Below, one piece after another: positions 11,951 to 56,256 of a DNA stretch of 64,000 bases (position 1 is its first letter; every line of letters begins with the position of its first letter). A program made the position numbers and the translations under genes. The notes beneath the pieces were generated by a model. The model was given only the letters and a program-made list of their open reading frames with translations, was not told where the DNA came from and ran no database searches. The DNA comes from Blattabacterium cuenoti (GTDB taxonomy: Bacteria > Bacteroidota > Bacteroidia > Flavobacteriales > Blattabacteriaceae): positions 372,001 to 436,000 of the forward strand of contig NZ_CP059181.1 of assembly GCF_014251235.1 (NCBI RefSeq). Direction: 5' to 3'.

Positions 11951-12343
11951 TTATACTCTTCTCCTTTTAGGAGGACGACAACCGTTATGAGGTAACGGTG
12001 TTATATCCTTTATTATAGTTACTATCAAGCCAGAATTACTCAAGGATCTTATAGCAGAATCTCTTCCACCTCCAGGTCCTTTAATATTTATTTCTATTTT
12101 TTTTATTCCAGCATTTAATCCTTTTTTTGCTACATCTTCTGCCGCTATTTGAGCAGCATATGGAGTATTTTTTTTGGATCCTTTAAAGTTCATTTTTCCG
12201 GCAGAAGACCATGCTATTACATCTCCTTTTTTATTAGTTAAAGTAATAATAATATTATTAAAAGTAGATTGAATATGTGCAACTCCAAAAGAATCAACTA
12301 TTACAGATTTTTTTTTCTTTAATAACTTTTTTTTTCCATACAT
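11951..12343 (-). CDS. rpsK: Small-subunit ribosomal protein uS11
   Basis: Platform protein of the 30S subunit. 130 residues, with the conserved core [35 protein letters not shown] and the C-terminal [10 protein letters not shown]. The lysine-rich N-terminus ([10 protein letters not shown]) is slightly extended. Between rpsM and rpsD with short spacers. Confidence 0.97.
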
Positions 12344-31334: not shown

Positions 31335-31359
31335 AAAAAAAAATTCCTAAATAAGGAAT
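31335..31359 (-). other. Terminator-like hairpin upstream of rplM
   Basis: Read on the minus strand, ATTCCT and AGGAAT (31343-31359) can pair around a 5-base loop and are followed at once by about nine T. This has the form of a small intrinsic terminator about 50 bases before the rplM start, so it could act as an attenuator if transcription starts above it. It might equally stop antisense reading from the dnaK side. The stem has only six pairs. Confidence 0.4.
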
Positions 31360-31404
31360 GACTTTTTGTCATAAAAAAACTAAACATTTCAATTTAAATA
31401 AGTT

Positions 31405-31431: not shown

Positions 31432-31448
31432 TCATTATGGCATAATGA
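31432..31448 (+). promoter_or_regulatory. Perfect 17-bp palindrome upstream of dnaK
   Basis: TCATTATG-G-CATAATGA: two 8-base arms around one base, 38 bases before the dnaK ATG. It contains the 11-mer CATTATGGCAT, which recurs inside a palindrome upstream of groES (54163-54177). The one-base centre makes a protein operator more likely than an RNA hairpin. It does not resemble the CIRCE element. A role in chaperone control is inferred only. Confidence 0.5.
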
Positions 31449-31485
31449 TTGGAGAATTCTTCATAATTAAAAAAAGTAATAAATA

Positions 31486-33390
31486 ATGAGTAGTAAAATT
31501 ATAGGAATAGATTTAGGAACAACAAATTCTTGTGTTTCCGTTATGGAGATAAATGATCCTGTGGTTATACCAAATTCAGAAGGAAAAAGAACGACCCCGT
31601 CTATAGTTGCTTTTGTAAGTGGAGGAGAAAGAAAAATAGGAGATCCTGCTAAAAGACAGGCTGTGACTAATCCACAAAAAACTATTTTTTCAATCAAACG
31701 TTTTATGGGAAGAATGTATTCTGAAGTAACTGAAGAATTAAAAAATATTCCATATAAAATTGTGAAAGGTGGAAATAATACACCTCGTGTTGATATAGAA
31801 AATAGATTATATGCTCCACAAGAAATATCTGCTATGATACTTCAAAAAATGAAAAAAACTGCGGAAGATTATCTAGGAGAAGAATTGAAAAGAGCAGTTA
31901 TTACTGTTCCCGCTTATTTTAATGATGCTCAAAGACAAGCAACAAAAGAAGCTGGAGAAATAGCAGGATTAAAAGTGGAAAGAATTATTAACGAGCCTAC
32001 TGCTGCGGCATTGGCCTATGGTTTAGATAAAAGTAAACAAAACAAAAAAATTGCAGTCTATGATTTAGGAGGAGGAACGTTTGATGTTTCAATATTAGAA
32101 TTAGGAGATGGAGTATTCGAAGTCCTTTCAACTAATGGTGATACTCATTTGGGTGGAGATGACTTTGATCAAGTAATAATAGATTATCTCGCAAACGAAT
32201 TTTCTTCTAGAGAAAATATAGATCTAAGAAAAGATCCTATGGCTTTACAACGTTTAAAAGAAGCAGCAGAAAAAGCTAAAATTGAATTATCTTCTTCTAC
32301 TCAAACAGAAATAAATTTACCATATATAACAGCTACAGAATCTGGACCTAAGCATTTAGTTTTATCATTAACTCGTTCAAAATTCGAACAAATTTCTGAA
32401 AAATTAATACAAAGATCTGTTAATCCATGTTCTAAAGCGTTAAAAGATGCAAATTTATCTACTAAAGATATAGACGAAGTCATTTTAGTAGGTGGATCTA
32501 CTAGAATTCCAAGAGTACAGAAAAGTGTAGAAAATTTTTTTCAAAAAAAACCATCTAAAGGTGTTAATCCTGATGAAGTTGTTGCTATTGGAGCTGCTAT
32601 ACAGGGTGGAGTTTTAACTGGAGATGTTCAAAATGTTTTATTATTAGATGTTACTCCTTTATCATTAGGTATTGAAACATTAGGAGGAGTTTTTACAAAA
32701 CTTATAGAATCAAATACTACCATTCCTACTAAAAAATCAGAAACCTTTTCTACAGCTTCAGATAACCAATCAGCAGTAACCATAAGAGTAGGACAAGGTG
32801 AACGATCTATGTTTAATGATAATAAAGAAATAGGTAGATTTGACTTAGTAGATATCCCTCCTGCACCTAGAGGTATTCCTCAAATAGAGGTTAGTTTCGA
32901 TATTGATGCAAATGGTATACTTAACGTTTCAGCAAAAGATAAAGGGACTGGAAAAGAACAGTCTATACGTATTGAAACATCATCAGGCTTAAATAAAGAT
33001 GAAATAGAAAAAATGAAGAGAGAAGCAAAAGAAAACGCTCAAAAAGATGAAAAAACAAAAGGAGAAATAGAGAAATTAAATTCAGCAGATAATCAAATAT
33101 TTCAAACAGAAAAACAACTAAAAGATTATGAAAATAAATTGTCCGAAGACAATAAAAAAAAGATTACACAATTCTTGGAAGAATTAAAAGAAGCCTATTC
33201 TAAAAAAGATTTTGAAAAAATAGATCTTTCTATAAAAAATTTAAACGAAATTTGGACAAAAGTGTTACAAGAAATATATGAATCTTCTAAGAACAAAAAT
33301 GAAAACAAAAATGAGGAAAAAAAAGAAAAAAAAGATAAACAAAGTAGTAATGAAAATGTACAAGATGTAGATTATGAAGAAGTAAAATAA
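31486..33390 (+). CDS. dnaK: Chaperone DnaK (Hsp70)
   Basis: ATP-driven chaperone for folding and protection of cytosolic proteins. 634 residues: nucleotide-binding domain with [13 protein letters not shown] near residues 5-17, [21 protein letters not shown] near 138-158 and [15 protein letters not shown] near 192-206; substrate domain with [14 protein letters not shown] near 386-399; and a charged helical lid ending in DVDYEEVK. Full length. Stands alone: neither grpE nor dnaJ is adjacent. Divergent from the rplM operon. Confidence 0.98.
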
Positions 33391-51124: not shown

Positions 51125-52540
51125 ATGGATAAAGATAAACCTTCTTTTTATATAGAAAGTTATGGATGTCAAATGAATATTTCTGATAGTGAAATCGTTG
51201 TTTCTATTTTACTAGAAAAAGGATATTCTTTAACATACGACTTGAAAAAAGCTCATTTAATTTTGTTAAATACTTGTTCAATACGAAAAAAAGCTTTTTT
51301 AACTATAAAAAATAGATTAGAAAATCTAAAATATTTAAAAATAAAAAACAAACAATTCCCATTGTTTGGAATTTTAGGATGTATATCTAAAACAACAGAA
51401 AAATCTTTTTTAGATAAAATTGATTTTTTTGTTGACCCTGATGATTATAGAAATATTTCAAACGTGATTGATTCGGTAATTAATAAAGGGTCAAAATCAT
51501 ATATTCCTTCTTTTTCTTTTAAAAAAAATTATAAAGATGAAACCTATGAAGGAATAGAACCTTATTTCCCTTTTAAAAAAAAACAAAGTAAAGTAACAAG
51601 TTTTCTAAGCATAACTAGAGGTTGTGATAATATGTGTACATTTTGTATTGTTCCATTTACAAGAGGAAGAGAAAGAAGTAAAAGTCCTTCTTATATAATT
51701 GAGGAATGTCAAAAACTATATGAACAAGGATATAAAGAAATAACCCTTTTGGGACAAAATGTGGATTCATATCTTTGGTTTGGTGGTAGATTAAAAAAAG
51801 AAATAAAAAATAGTAAAAAGATAGAAAAAAAAATAATAGATTTCTCCAATCTTTTAGACCTTATAGCTAAGGAATTTCCATCCATGAGGATTAGATTTTC
51901 TACTTCTAATCCTCAAGATATGTCTTATGAAGTTATAGAGATAATGTCTAAGCATTCAAATATTTGTAAACATATTCATTTACCAGTTCAATCTGGAAGC
52001 AATAAAATACTTAAAATAATGAATAGAAAATATACCCGTGAAATATATATTTCGTTAATAAAAAGAATTAGATCTATAATACCAGAATGTTCTATCTCCC
52101 ATGATATTATGGCAGGTTTTTGTCACGAAACGGAAGAAGATCATCAAGAAACTTTAAGTTTAATGAATGAAGTTAAATATAATTATGGTTATATGTTTAG
52201 TTACTCACCTAGACCAGGTACTTTTTCTTATAAAAAATTAAAAGATACTGTTCCAATAAGAGTGAAGAAAAGAAGGTTAAAAGAAATTATTGAGTTACAA
52301 AAAACTCATTCCATTTTTCATATGAAAAAATTTTTAGGAAAAACAGAAAAAGTATTAATCGAAGGTGAATCCAAAAAAAATCATAACAATTGGTATGGAA
52401 GAAATACACAAAATATAGTTGTTGTATTTCCAAAAAAAAATACAAAAATAGGAGAAACGATTCTTATTAAAATAATTAATTTTTCATCTGCAACCCTAAT
52501 AGGAAAAATAGAAAATAAACATTCTAATTGTTCCAATTAA
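51125..52540 (+). CDS. miaB: tRNA-2-methylthio-N6-dimethylallyladenosine synthase
   Basis: Radical-SAM enzyme that adds the methylthio group to i6A37 of tRNA. 471 residues: N-terminal UPF0004 domain with three cluster cysteines C15, C51 and C86, radical-SAM motif CDNMCTFC (C167, C171, C174), ITLLGQNVDSY, IHLPVQSGSNKIL and a C-terminal TRAM domain. Complete. Directly followed by the sigma-54 type activator gene, nine bases on. Confidence 0.94.
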   Translation: MDKDKPSFYIESYGCQMNISDSEIVVSILLEKGYSLTYDLKKAHLILLNTCSIRKKAFLTIKNRLENLKYLKIKNKQFPLFGILGCISKTTEKSFLDKIDFFVDPDDYRNISNVIDSVINKGSKSYIPSFSFKKNYKDETYEGIEPYFPFKKKQSKVTSFLSITRGCDNMCTFCIVPFTRGRERSKSPSYIIEECQKLYEQGYKEITLLGQNVDSYLWFGGRLKKEIKNSKKIEKKIIDFSNLLDLIAKEFPSMRIRFSTSNPQDMSYEVIEIMSKHSNICKHIHLPVQSGSNKILKIMNRKYTREIYISLIKRIRSIIPECSISHDIMAGFCHETEEDHQETLSLMNEVKYNYGYMFSYSPRPGTFSYKKLKDTVPIRVKKRRLKEIIELQKTHSIFHMKKFLGKTEKVLIEGESKKNHNNWYGRNTQNIVVVFPKKNTKIGETILIKIINFSSATLIGKIENKHSNCSN

Positions 52541-52548
52541 ATACATAC

Positions 52549-53856
52549 ATGGATAAATTTATTCAGAATATAAAACAAAAATTTAATATCATAGGAAATG
52601 ATCATTCTTTACAAAGAACCATAGAAAAATCTATTCAAGTGGCTCCTAGTGATATTTCTGTCTTGGTTCTTGGTGAAAGCGGTGTAGGAAAAGAAATTAT
52701 TCCAAAAATAATTCATCAATTTTCTTTCAGAAAACATAATTCATTTATAGCTGTCAATTGTGGAGCAATTCCAGAAGGAACTATTGATAGTGAGCTTTTT
52801 GGTCATGAAAAAGGTTCTTTTACCGGTGCTATAAATATGAGAAAAGGCTATTTTGAAGAAGCAAATGGAGGTACTATTTTTTTAGATGAAGTAGGAGAAT
52901 TACCCATAACAACTCAAGTTCGTCTCCTTAGAATTTTAGAATCAGGTGAGTTTATAAAAGTTGGATCTTCTCATGTTCAAAAAACTAACATACGTGTTGT
53001 TGCTGCAACTAATTTAAATATGATAGAATCTATACGAAAAGGGAAATTTAGGGAAGATTTGTATTACCGTTTAAACACAGTACAAATAAACATACCACCT
53101 TTACGATTTCGGAAAAATGATATTGAACCATTATTTAAAAAATTTTCTAATGATTTTTCCGAAAAATATAAAATTCCTCCAATTAAACTTACTGAAAAAT
53201 CTTTAAGATACTTAGAAGATTATCCTTGGCCAGGAAATATAAGACAATTGAAAAATTTAATTGAACAAATTTCTATAATAGAAAAAAAAAGAGAAATATC
53301 TATTGATAAATTGAAAGAATATATTCCAGAAAATTCTCCTTCTTTATCTTTTCCATCATCAAACAACGAACGTATTTTTCAAGATTTTTCATCCGAAAGA
53401 GATTTTCTGTATAAAGTTTTATTTGATATGAAAAAAAATTTCAATAATCTAAAAAGTTTAATATTTCAATTTATCAAAAATAAAAATAACGAAAACAATA
53501 ATTTTATAAAAAAAAATCAAAAAATTATAGAAAAAGTTTTCGGAAAAATAATAAACTCTTCTGATAATTCTTCTTCTGTAGAATCCACTATAATGGAAGA
53601 TCCTATTTTTAGATTAGAGCATTCATCTTCAGATCTTACTACTAATTCTCAAGAACAAGAAGAAGATCTAGATTATGAAGAGATAGAGGAAGATTCTTAT
53701 AAAAATGAATCAAAAAATTTTTCTTTACAAAAAAAAGAAATAGAATTTATTCAAAAATCTTTGAAAAAAAATAATGGAAAAAGAAAAAAAACGGCTAAAG
53801 AATTAGGTATATCAGAAAGAACCTTATATAGAAAAATTAAACAGTATGGCTTATAA
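52549..53856 (+). CDS. Sigma-54 dependent, Fis-type transcription activator
   Basis: An AAA+ enhancer-binding protein of 435 residues without a receiver domain. Walker A GESGVGKE at 42-49, NSFIAVNCGAIP near 64-75, the sigma-54 contact loop GSFTGA at 89-94 (usually GAFTGA), Walker B TIFLDEV at 109-115 and the R-finger region RLNTV. A long Ser/Glu-rich linker (about 270-395) leads to a Fis-type helix-turn-helix at the end (TAKELGISERTLYRKIKQYG). Whether the partner sigma-54 (rpoN) exists cannot be seen here. Between miaB and secG, the position it has in Flavobacteria. Confidence 0.9.
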   Translation: MDKFIQNIKQKFNIIGNDHSLQRTIEKSIQVAPSDISVLVLGESGVGKEIIPKIIHQFSFRKHNSFIAVNCGAIPEGTIDSELFGHEKGSFTGAINMRKGYFEEANGGTIFLDEVGELPITTQVRLLRILESGEFIKVGSSHVQKTNIRVVAATNLNMIESIRKGKFREDLYYRLNTVQINIPPLRFRKNDIEPLFKKFSNDFSEKYKIPPIKLTEKSLRYLEDYPWPGNIRQLKNLIEQISIIEKKREISIDKLKEYIPENSPSLSFPSSNNERIFQDFSSERDFLYKVLFDMKKNFNNLKSLIFQFIKNKNNENNNFIKKNQKIIEKVFGKIINSSDNSSSVESTIMEDPIFRLEHSSSDLTTNSQEQEEDLDYEEIEEDSYKNESKNFSLQKKEIEFIQKSLKKNNGKRKKTAKELGISERTLYRKIKQYGL

Positions 53857-53923: not shown

Positions 53924-54160
53924 ATGAAATTATCCATATTTATTATAGGTTTTTTTATTATTTTAACTTGTTTTTTTCTTATCACAATAATTTTGATACA
54001 AAATCCAAAACAAGGATTTATTTCTCAATCTTTTATGGAAGATAATTTCAGATTTTTTGGAGTCAAAAGAACTAATATTCTTCTAAAAAGAATAACTTGG
54101 TTATCATCAATAATGATATTATTTCTCATTTTACTCTTCAATTTAATATTAAAACATTAA
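53924..54160 (+). CDS. secG: Preprotein translocase subunit SecG
   Basis: Small accessory protein of the SecY channel. 78 residues with two membrane helices (about 5-24 and 56-76) and the conserved loop IQNPKQGFISQSF (near 25-37). It lacks the long Ser/Gly tail of many SecG proteins. Located before groES as in other Flavobacteriales; the lptE gene that commonly stands between the activator and secG in free-living relatives is not here. Confidence 0.83.
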   Translation: MKLSIFIIGFFIILTCFFLITIILIQNPKQGFISQSFMEDNFRFFGVKRTNILLKRITWLSSIMILFLILLFNLILKH

Positions 54161-54162
54161 AT

Positions 54163-54177
54163 ATGCCATTATGGCAT
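54163..54177 (+). promoter_or_regulatory. Perfect 15-bp palindrome upstream of groES
   Basis: ATGCCAT-T-ATGGCAT, beginning two bases after the secG stop. It holds the 11-mer CATTATGGCAT that also lies in the palindrome upstream of dnaK (31432-31448). One-base centre, so a protein-binding site is likelier than a hairpin. Its function is inferred only from its placement before both chaperone genes. Confidence 0.5.
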
Positions 54178-54200: not shown

Positions 54201-54229
54201 AACATACCAAATTTTTTATTTGGCATGTT
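54201..54229 (+). other. Hairpin between secG and groES
   Basis: AACATACCAAAT (54201-54212) and ATTTGGCATGTT (54218-54229) pair over 11 of 12 positions around a TTTTT loop. The following bases are T-rich but broken by GG, so it is a mediocre terminator for secG or, alternatively, part of groES control. Confidence 0.5.
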
Positions 54230-54237
54230 TTTGGCTT

Positions 54238-54257
54238 TTAACGATTAATATCGTTAA
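54238..54257 (+). promoter_or_regulatory. Perfect inverted repeat next to the groES start
   Basis: TTAACGAT-TAAT-ATCGTTAA, 8-base arms with a 4-base centre, ending 19 bases before the groES ATG. It could be an operator or an RNA hairpin in the leader. It is not CIRCE (TTAGCACTC-N9-GAGTGCTAA), although it has the same general placement. Confidence 0.5.
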
Positions 54258-54276: not shown

Positions 54277-54555
54277 ATGGTGGAAGTAAAAATTAAACCA
54301 TTAGCAGATCGAGTTCTTATACAACCTGATCCAGCTGAAACAAAAACAGAATCAGGTATTATTATTCCAGATACAGCAAAGGAAAAACCACAAAAAGGAA
54401 AAGTAATAGCCATTGGAAATGGTAAAAAAAATGAACCTATGATTTTAAAAAAAGGAGATAGAGTTTTATATGGTAAATATTCAGGAACTGAATTAAAATG
54501 GGAGGGAGAAGAATATCTCGTTATGAGAGAATCTGATGTTATAGCTATTATTTGA
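54277..54555 (+). CDS. groES: Co-chaperonin GroES
   Basis: Heptameric lid of the GroEL chamber. 92 residues from the ATG of MVEVKIKPLADRVLIQPD; the frame is open 19 codons further upstream but that part crosses the inverted repeat and is not conserved. Mobile loop ETKTESGIIIPDTAKEKPQ near 20-38 and the ending SDVIAII. Followed by groEL after 60 bases. Confidence 0.97.
   Translation: MVEVKIKPLADRVLIQPDPAETKTESGIIIPDTAKEKPQKGKVIAIGNGKKNEPMILKKGDRVLYGKYSGTELKWEGEEYLVMRESDVIAII

Positions 54556-54609: not shown

Positions 54610-56256
<1,647 letters not shown>

Follow-up and report, generated by a model that had tools for sequence, protein, structure and literature searches.

The dnaK and groES upstream regions

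The window, a 64,000-nt stretch of the one 613,216-bp contig of this Blattabacterium cuenoti genome, holds dnaK and, in a second group, a miaB-like gene, a sigma-54 activator gene, a secG-like short ORF, groES and groEL (Table 1). As an earlier note on this DNA had pointed out, each of the two chaperone loci is preceded by a perfect palindrome: one of 17 bp, TCATTATG-G-CATAATGA, ending 37 nt from the dnaK ATG (31486), and one of 15 bp, ATGCCAT-T-ATGGCAT, which leaves ~100 nt to the groES ATG (54277). Both contain the 11-mer CATTATGGCAT, whose only exact matches in the 613,216 bp of the genome are these two, and the judgement that such sharing is improbable by chance holds up, as only ~0.07% of dinucleotide shuffles gave two upstream regions sharing any 11-mer with at least four G/C. 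The note was also right in finding no CIRCE element: the window has no match to TTAGCACTC-N9-GAGTGCTAA with up to three mismatches allowed.

Table 1. Genes and candidate regulatory features at the two chaperone loci, in window positions
Feature	Position	Strand	Basis
Candidate dnaK activator site ATGACTTTTTGTCAT	31358..31372	.	Present in 49/49 with no more than one change; helically phased distances
17-bp palindrome overlapping the -24 element of dnaK	31432..31448	.	Perfect in 25/49; left arm less conserved
Putative sigma-54 -24/-12 promoter of dnaK, TGGCATAATGATTGG	31438..31452	+	TGGCATAATNATTG before dnaK in 49/49
dnaK	31486..33390	+	ORF; DnaK N-terminus matched in 49 genomes
miaB-like gene, directly 5' of the activator	51125..52540	+	ORF and translation
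Sigma-54 activator, AAA+ with GESGVGKE and GSFTGA, Fis-type HTH	52549..53856	+	PF00158 E 1e-65, HTH_8 E 1e-10
Short secG-like ORF separating activator and groES	53924..54160	+	Read from sequence; named by position
15-bp palindrome, candidate groES enhancer, core TGCCATTATGGCA	54163..54177	.	Present in 47/49 genomes, mostly symmetric despite a variable letter pair
Putative sigma-54 -24/-12 promoter of groESL, TGGCATGTTTTTGGCT	54221..54236	+	GG and GC invariant, 49/49
groES	54277..54555	+	Translation; genus-wide match
groEL, 546 aa, 3' of groES	54616..56256	+	ORF; named by position and size

We compared the two regions across 49 genomes of the genus, this one and 48 others of ~0.5–0.64 Mb. The two palindromes do not superimpose because base 8 of CATTATGGCAT is the dyad centre at dnaK but base 4 at groES, an offset of 4 bp, and the 11-mer stands at both genes together in only 4 of the 49 genomes (G000, G020, G045 and G048). 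Its 45 exact matches across the genus are divided among dnaK (~27 upstream), groES (8), grpE (1) and other places (9); the groES palindrome of most relatives is TGTCATAATGACA, which does not contain it. A shared dyadic operator was rejected on these two grounds, the offset of the centres and the lack of conservation of the word at both genes.

At dnaK, footprinting across the 49 genomes gave a conserved block, TGGCATAATNATTG, that extends beyond the palindrome on its right side only. We read the dnaK palindrome as being mostly the -24 element of a putative sigma-54 promoter, with the 11-mer there forming the left part of the -24/-12 promoter. The candidate activator site upstream is centred 73 bp 5' of the -24 T in this genome, and often a second TGTCA precedes dnaK besides the conserved ATGACTTTTTGTCAT. 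Two features count against a sigma-54 reading at this gene: its -12 box is TTGG or TTGA instead of TTGC, and the candidate activator site has the geometry ATGAC-N5-GTCAT, unlike that at groES.

The predicted sigma-54 promoter of groES, TGGCATGTTTTTGGC, is a separate word near the palindrome, near-invariant in the genus as TGGCATGTTTTTGGCT, and the palindrome is centred 51 bp 5' of its -24 T in this genome. The conserved words of dnaK and groES alike place GG and G at the spacing of sigma-54 -24 and -12 elements (TGGCA-N6-TTG(C)). Across the 47 genomes that keep it the palindrome is mostly symmetric despite changes of letter pair, the variable pair being T-A in 28, C-G in 3, A-T in 3 and mismatched in 13. 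It is predicted to be an upstream activator (enhancer) site, with the 11-mer lying inside it. The dnaK and groES palindromes are thus very probably different parts, promoter and enhancer respectively, of one sigma-54 (RpoN) switch. The common repressor or activator site that the earlier note had thought plausible survives in part: both sites appear to be regulatory, they are kept in sister genomes and they would belong to one chaperone control system, but a single operator marked by the 11-mer finds no support.

Two other inverted repeats lie close to the groES promoter. One of 20 nt (54238–54257), TTAACGAT-TAAT-ATCGTTAA, lies immediately 3' of the -12 box, where the transcript is predicted to start, is partly conserved across the genus (AACGATTAGTATCGTTAACC in many) and may form a hairpin at the 5' end of groES mRNA. 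The other (54201–54229), AACATACCAAAT / ATTTGGCATGTT, overlaps the -24 element, reads AAATGAAAAA...TTTTTCATTT in several relatives and is a possible terminator of the operon upstream.

Further predicted targets, enhancer word and helical phase

A relaxed sigma-54 search placed a promoter-like site before grpE-dnaJ (TGGCAAATATTTTGC, genome position ~92296 here), where TGGCAAATNTTTTGC lies 18–20 bp 3' of a palindrome centre at nearly all loci. At htpG, TGGTATAATCTTTG is preceded by TGACATAATGTCT, and this promoter-like word is present in all five genomes looked at. The C of the -12 box is present at groES and grpE and absent at dnaK and htpG. No sigma-54 site was seen in the region upstream of clpB, and a search of the genome by pattern gave no other conserved sigma-54 target beyond the chaperone set. 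Four matches to the -24/-12 pattern were set aside: that at 220374 lies inside a yggS-like coding sequence, that at 12133 inside an FtsW/RodA-like ORF and that at 348203 in letters that we take, from their look, to be 16S rRNA, while that at 251925 was a one-off.

The enhancer pattern TGNCATNATGNCA occurs at 119 places summed over the 49-genome search, as against four for the reversed control pattern, and is found in 47 of the 49 genomes with one to four copies in each. Its recurrent places are groES, grpE-dnaJ and, in many relatives, the miaB-activator operon; htpG carries a near match (variant).

The enhancer centre at groES lies 49–53 bp from the -24 T in 39 genomes, 39–42 bp in seven and 19 bp in one. 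The same distance is 18–20 bp at all grpE loci but one and 19 bp at htpG in this genome, and at dnaK the distances of the candidate activator site from the -24 T cluster near 62, 73, 84, 94 and 114 bp. Periodicity was strongest at 10.7 bp for groES and at 10.6 bp for dnaK (p<0.002 versus random distinct distances, a value that is optimistic because the test ignores shared descent and clumping), and the phase is nearly equal at 8.8 bp for groES and 9.2 bp for dnaK. The separated distance clusters are a stronger argument for phasing than the p-values. An enhancer ~20 bp before the -24 element, as at grpE and htpG, is unusually close for sigma-54 and counts against the sigma-54 reading.

RpoN, its activator and the wider Bacteroidota

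Every one of the 49 genomes has a single rpoN (one PF04552 match each), and the RpoN box ARRTIAKYRD is intact in this genome. The activator is the sole strong PF00158 match per genome and is encoded just before secG-groES; the remaining PF00158 matches are far weaker and resemble other AAA+ proteins such as ClpB. Its GESGVGKE and GSFTGA motifs and its HTH_8 domain supply the Walker A motif, the GAFTGA-type loop and the DNA-binding part expected of a sigma-54 activator. A receiver or other N-terminal regulatory domain is usual, though not universal, among sigma-54 activators, and here the AAA+ domain starts at residue 21 with no Pfam domain ahead of it. PspF-type activators consist of an AAA+ domain and a Fis-type HTH with no N-terminal receiver, an architecture that this protein shares, whereas its ~130-aa linker between AAA+ and HTH, its predicted chaperone targets and the lack of a Psp partner identified here set it apart. 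The linker (53344–53742) is partly acidic and is a candidate sensing region. Lacking a receiver, the protein may be active constitutively; alternatively, it may be controlled by chaperone titration. High chaperone levels are commonly reported in insect endosymbionts, which would fit a constitutive activator.

The enhancer palindrome of many relatives also stands a few tens of bases 5' of the miaB-activator operon, which suggests that the activator may control its own expression. It is absent there in this genome (51020–51124) and was not found in G037, and no -24/-12 site was seen beside it in the relatives that have it.

Beyond the genus, a sigma-54-like site lies within 200 nt of groES in 97.5% of 80 named Bacteroidota regions, compared with 2.9% of shuffles and 7.5% on the reverse strand. 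The top enriched 5-mer 5' of that site is TGACA/TGTCA (2.18 versus 0.29 per 120 nt), although part of this enrichment may come from terminator-like hairpins. When 4 kb were read, an activator relative was found 5' of groES in 6 of 14 free-living Flavobacteriales; in the five that were readable through, it lies 1.7–2.1 kb away and leaves no room for a receiver domain ahead of AAA+. That distance explains why no activator was seen within 1.5 kb of groES at the 80 named loci. The layout at groES is common to free-living Bacteroidota.

The proposed switch, its alternatives and its setting

Given the promoter and enhancer words found at these genes, their conservation and spacing, the gene set and the single rpoN and activator, we infer RpoN-dependent transcription from enhancer-bound activator. 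RpoN-RNA polymerase would bind the -24/-12 promoters of dnaK and groESL and, elsewhere in the genome, those of grpE-dnaJ and htpG. The activator, under whatever signal acts on it, if any, would bind palindromes of the TGNCAT-N-ATGNCA type lying on the same face of the DNA as the promoter, ~2 to 11 helical turns 5' of it, and would spend ATP to open the promoter.

The palindromes might instead be bound by a protein other than this activator while the sigma-54 promoters are as we describe them. The dnaK and groES palindromes are indeed unlike in geometry, and the activator could work without binding an enhancer; nevertheless, the single strong sigma-54 activator in each genome, the helical phasing of palindrome and promoter and the palindrome at the activator's own operon in many relatives argue against another binder, which we consider unlikely. 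A poorer prospect still is that one heat-shock repressor or activator acts on both palindromes through CATTATGGCAT. The uniqueness of the word to these two sites and its improbability by chance speak for such a regulator, as do the ATTA bases left of the dnaK -24, which are 92–96% conserved, but the dyad centres are out of register, few genomes have the word at both genes, the conserved dnaK block passes the palindrome on one side and the dnaK palindrome is often imperfect. A reading of the palindromes as RNA hairpins, as terminators or as dyads that arose by chance beside ordinary sigma-A promoters is scarcely credible: the groES palindrome does start 3 nt past the secG-like stop codon, with a terminator-like score on the minus strand, but the plus strand has no terminator-like site at either palindrome, a centre of one base would fold poorly as a hairpin and the same palindrome precedes grpE and miaB, in helical phase with the -24 element.

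In the CIRCE/HrcA system, inverted repeats stand before dnaK and groESL. The sigma-54 switch proposed here likewise has inverted repeats at these genes, but without a CIRCE match in the window, and the evidence points to activation, unlike the repression exerted through CIRCE/HrcA.

Closer parallels come from Flavobacterium psychrophilum, in which mapped transcript starts have sigma-54 motifs at groESL, dnaK, grpE-dnaJ, htpG and lon; these genes make up one co-expression cluster (B254, motif SM4) and clpB belongs to another (PMC9723704). The two organisms thus have groESL, dnaK, grpE-dnaJ and htpG as predicted or mapped targets and an activator a few genes before groES in common, and the absence of a clpB site here matches the separate clpB cluster there (PMC9723704). 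F. psychrophilum differs in having three activators, none of which is assigned, and many other sigma-54 targets, whereas one activator is found here (PMC9723704). A 2025 PSSM survey, in the portion of its text considered here, predicts GroEL, GroES, GrpE, DnaJ and DnaK as sigma-54 targets, most strongly in Flavobacteriia; within that portion it assigns neither an enhancer motif nor an activator, and Blattabacterium appears only in a reference (PMC12316311). The sigma factors of Blattabacterium are RpoD and RpoN, and it has been described as unusual for flavobacterial insect symbionts to retain RpoN, a retention tentatively tied to nitrogen use (PMC3971599). In the literature that we searched, sigma-54 control of chaperones was not reported for Blattabacterium. 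Such control is itself known; what is new, relative to that literature, is that it is recognised in these symbionts, that one activator is assigned to it and that an enhancer word is named.

The chaperone switch is apparently the reason why this reduced genome still keeps RpoN; within the reach of the promoter and enhancer searches, the sigma factor would serve protein folding here. Since each symbiont genome has a sole activator and few sites, the activator and the enhancer word that belong to the sigma-54 chaperone promoters in Bacteroidota can be singled out there. More speculatively, the receiver-less activator could be a dedicated heat-shock (unfolded-protein) regulator of the Bacteroidota, controlled through its linker or by titration, with symbionts keeping RpoN only for this circuit and losing all of its parts together; we hold this to be possible, with more doubt than confidence. 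If true, the groES-adjacent activator does in Bacteroidota what RpoH or HrcA does elsewhere, and promoters, activator and RpoN are lost together once the circuit goes.

Among genomes of the family, three (G064, G138 and G153) have retained the activator together with promoter and enhancer, and G141 has the activator and promoter. Eleven that have no activator within ~1.8 kb of groES also have no promoter. Two small genomes, G154 (263,431 bp) and G155 (309,299 bp), have the activator beside groES and degenerate sigma-54 sites at that gene, a state that counts against the sigma-54 switch as the best explanation and in which the chaperone circuit is possibly in decay.
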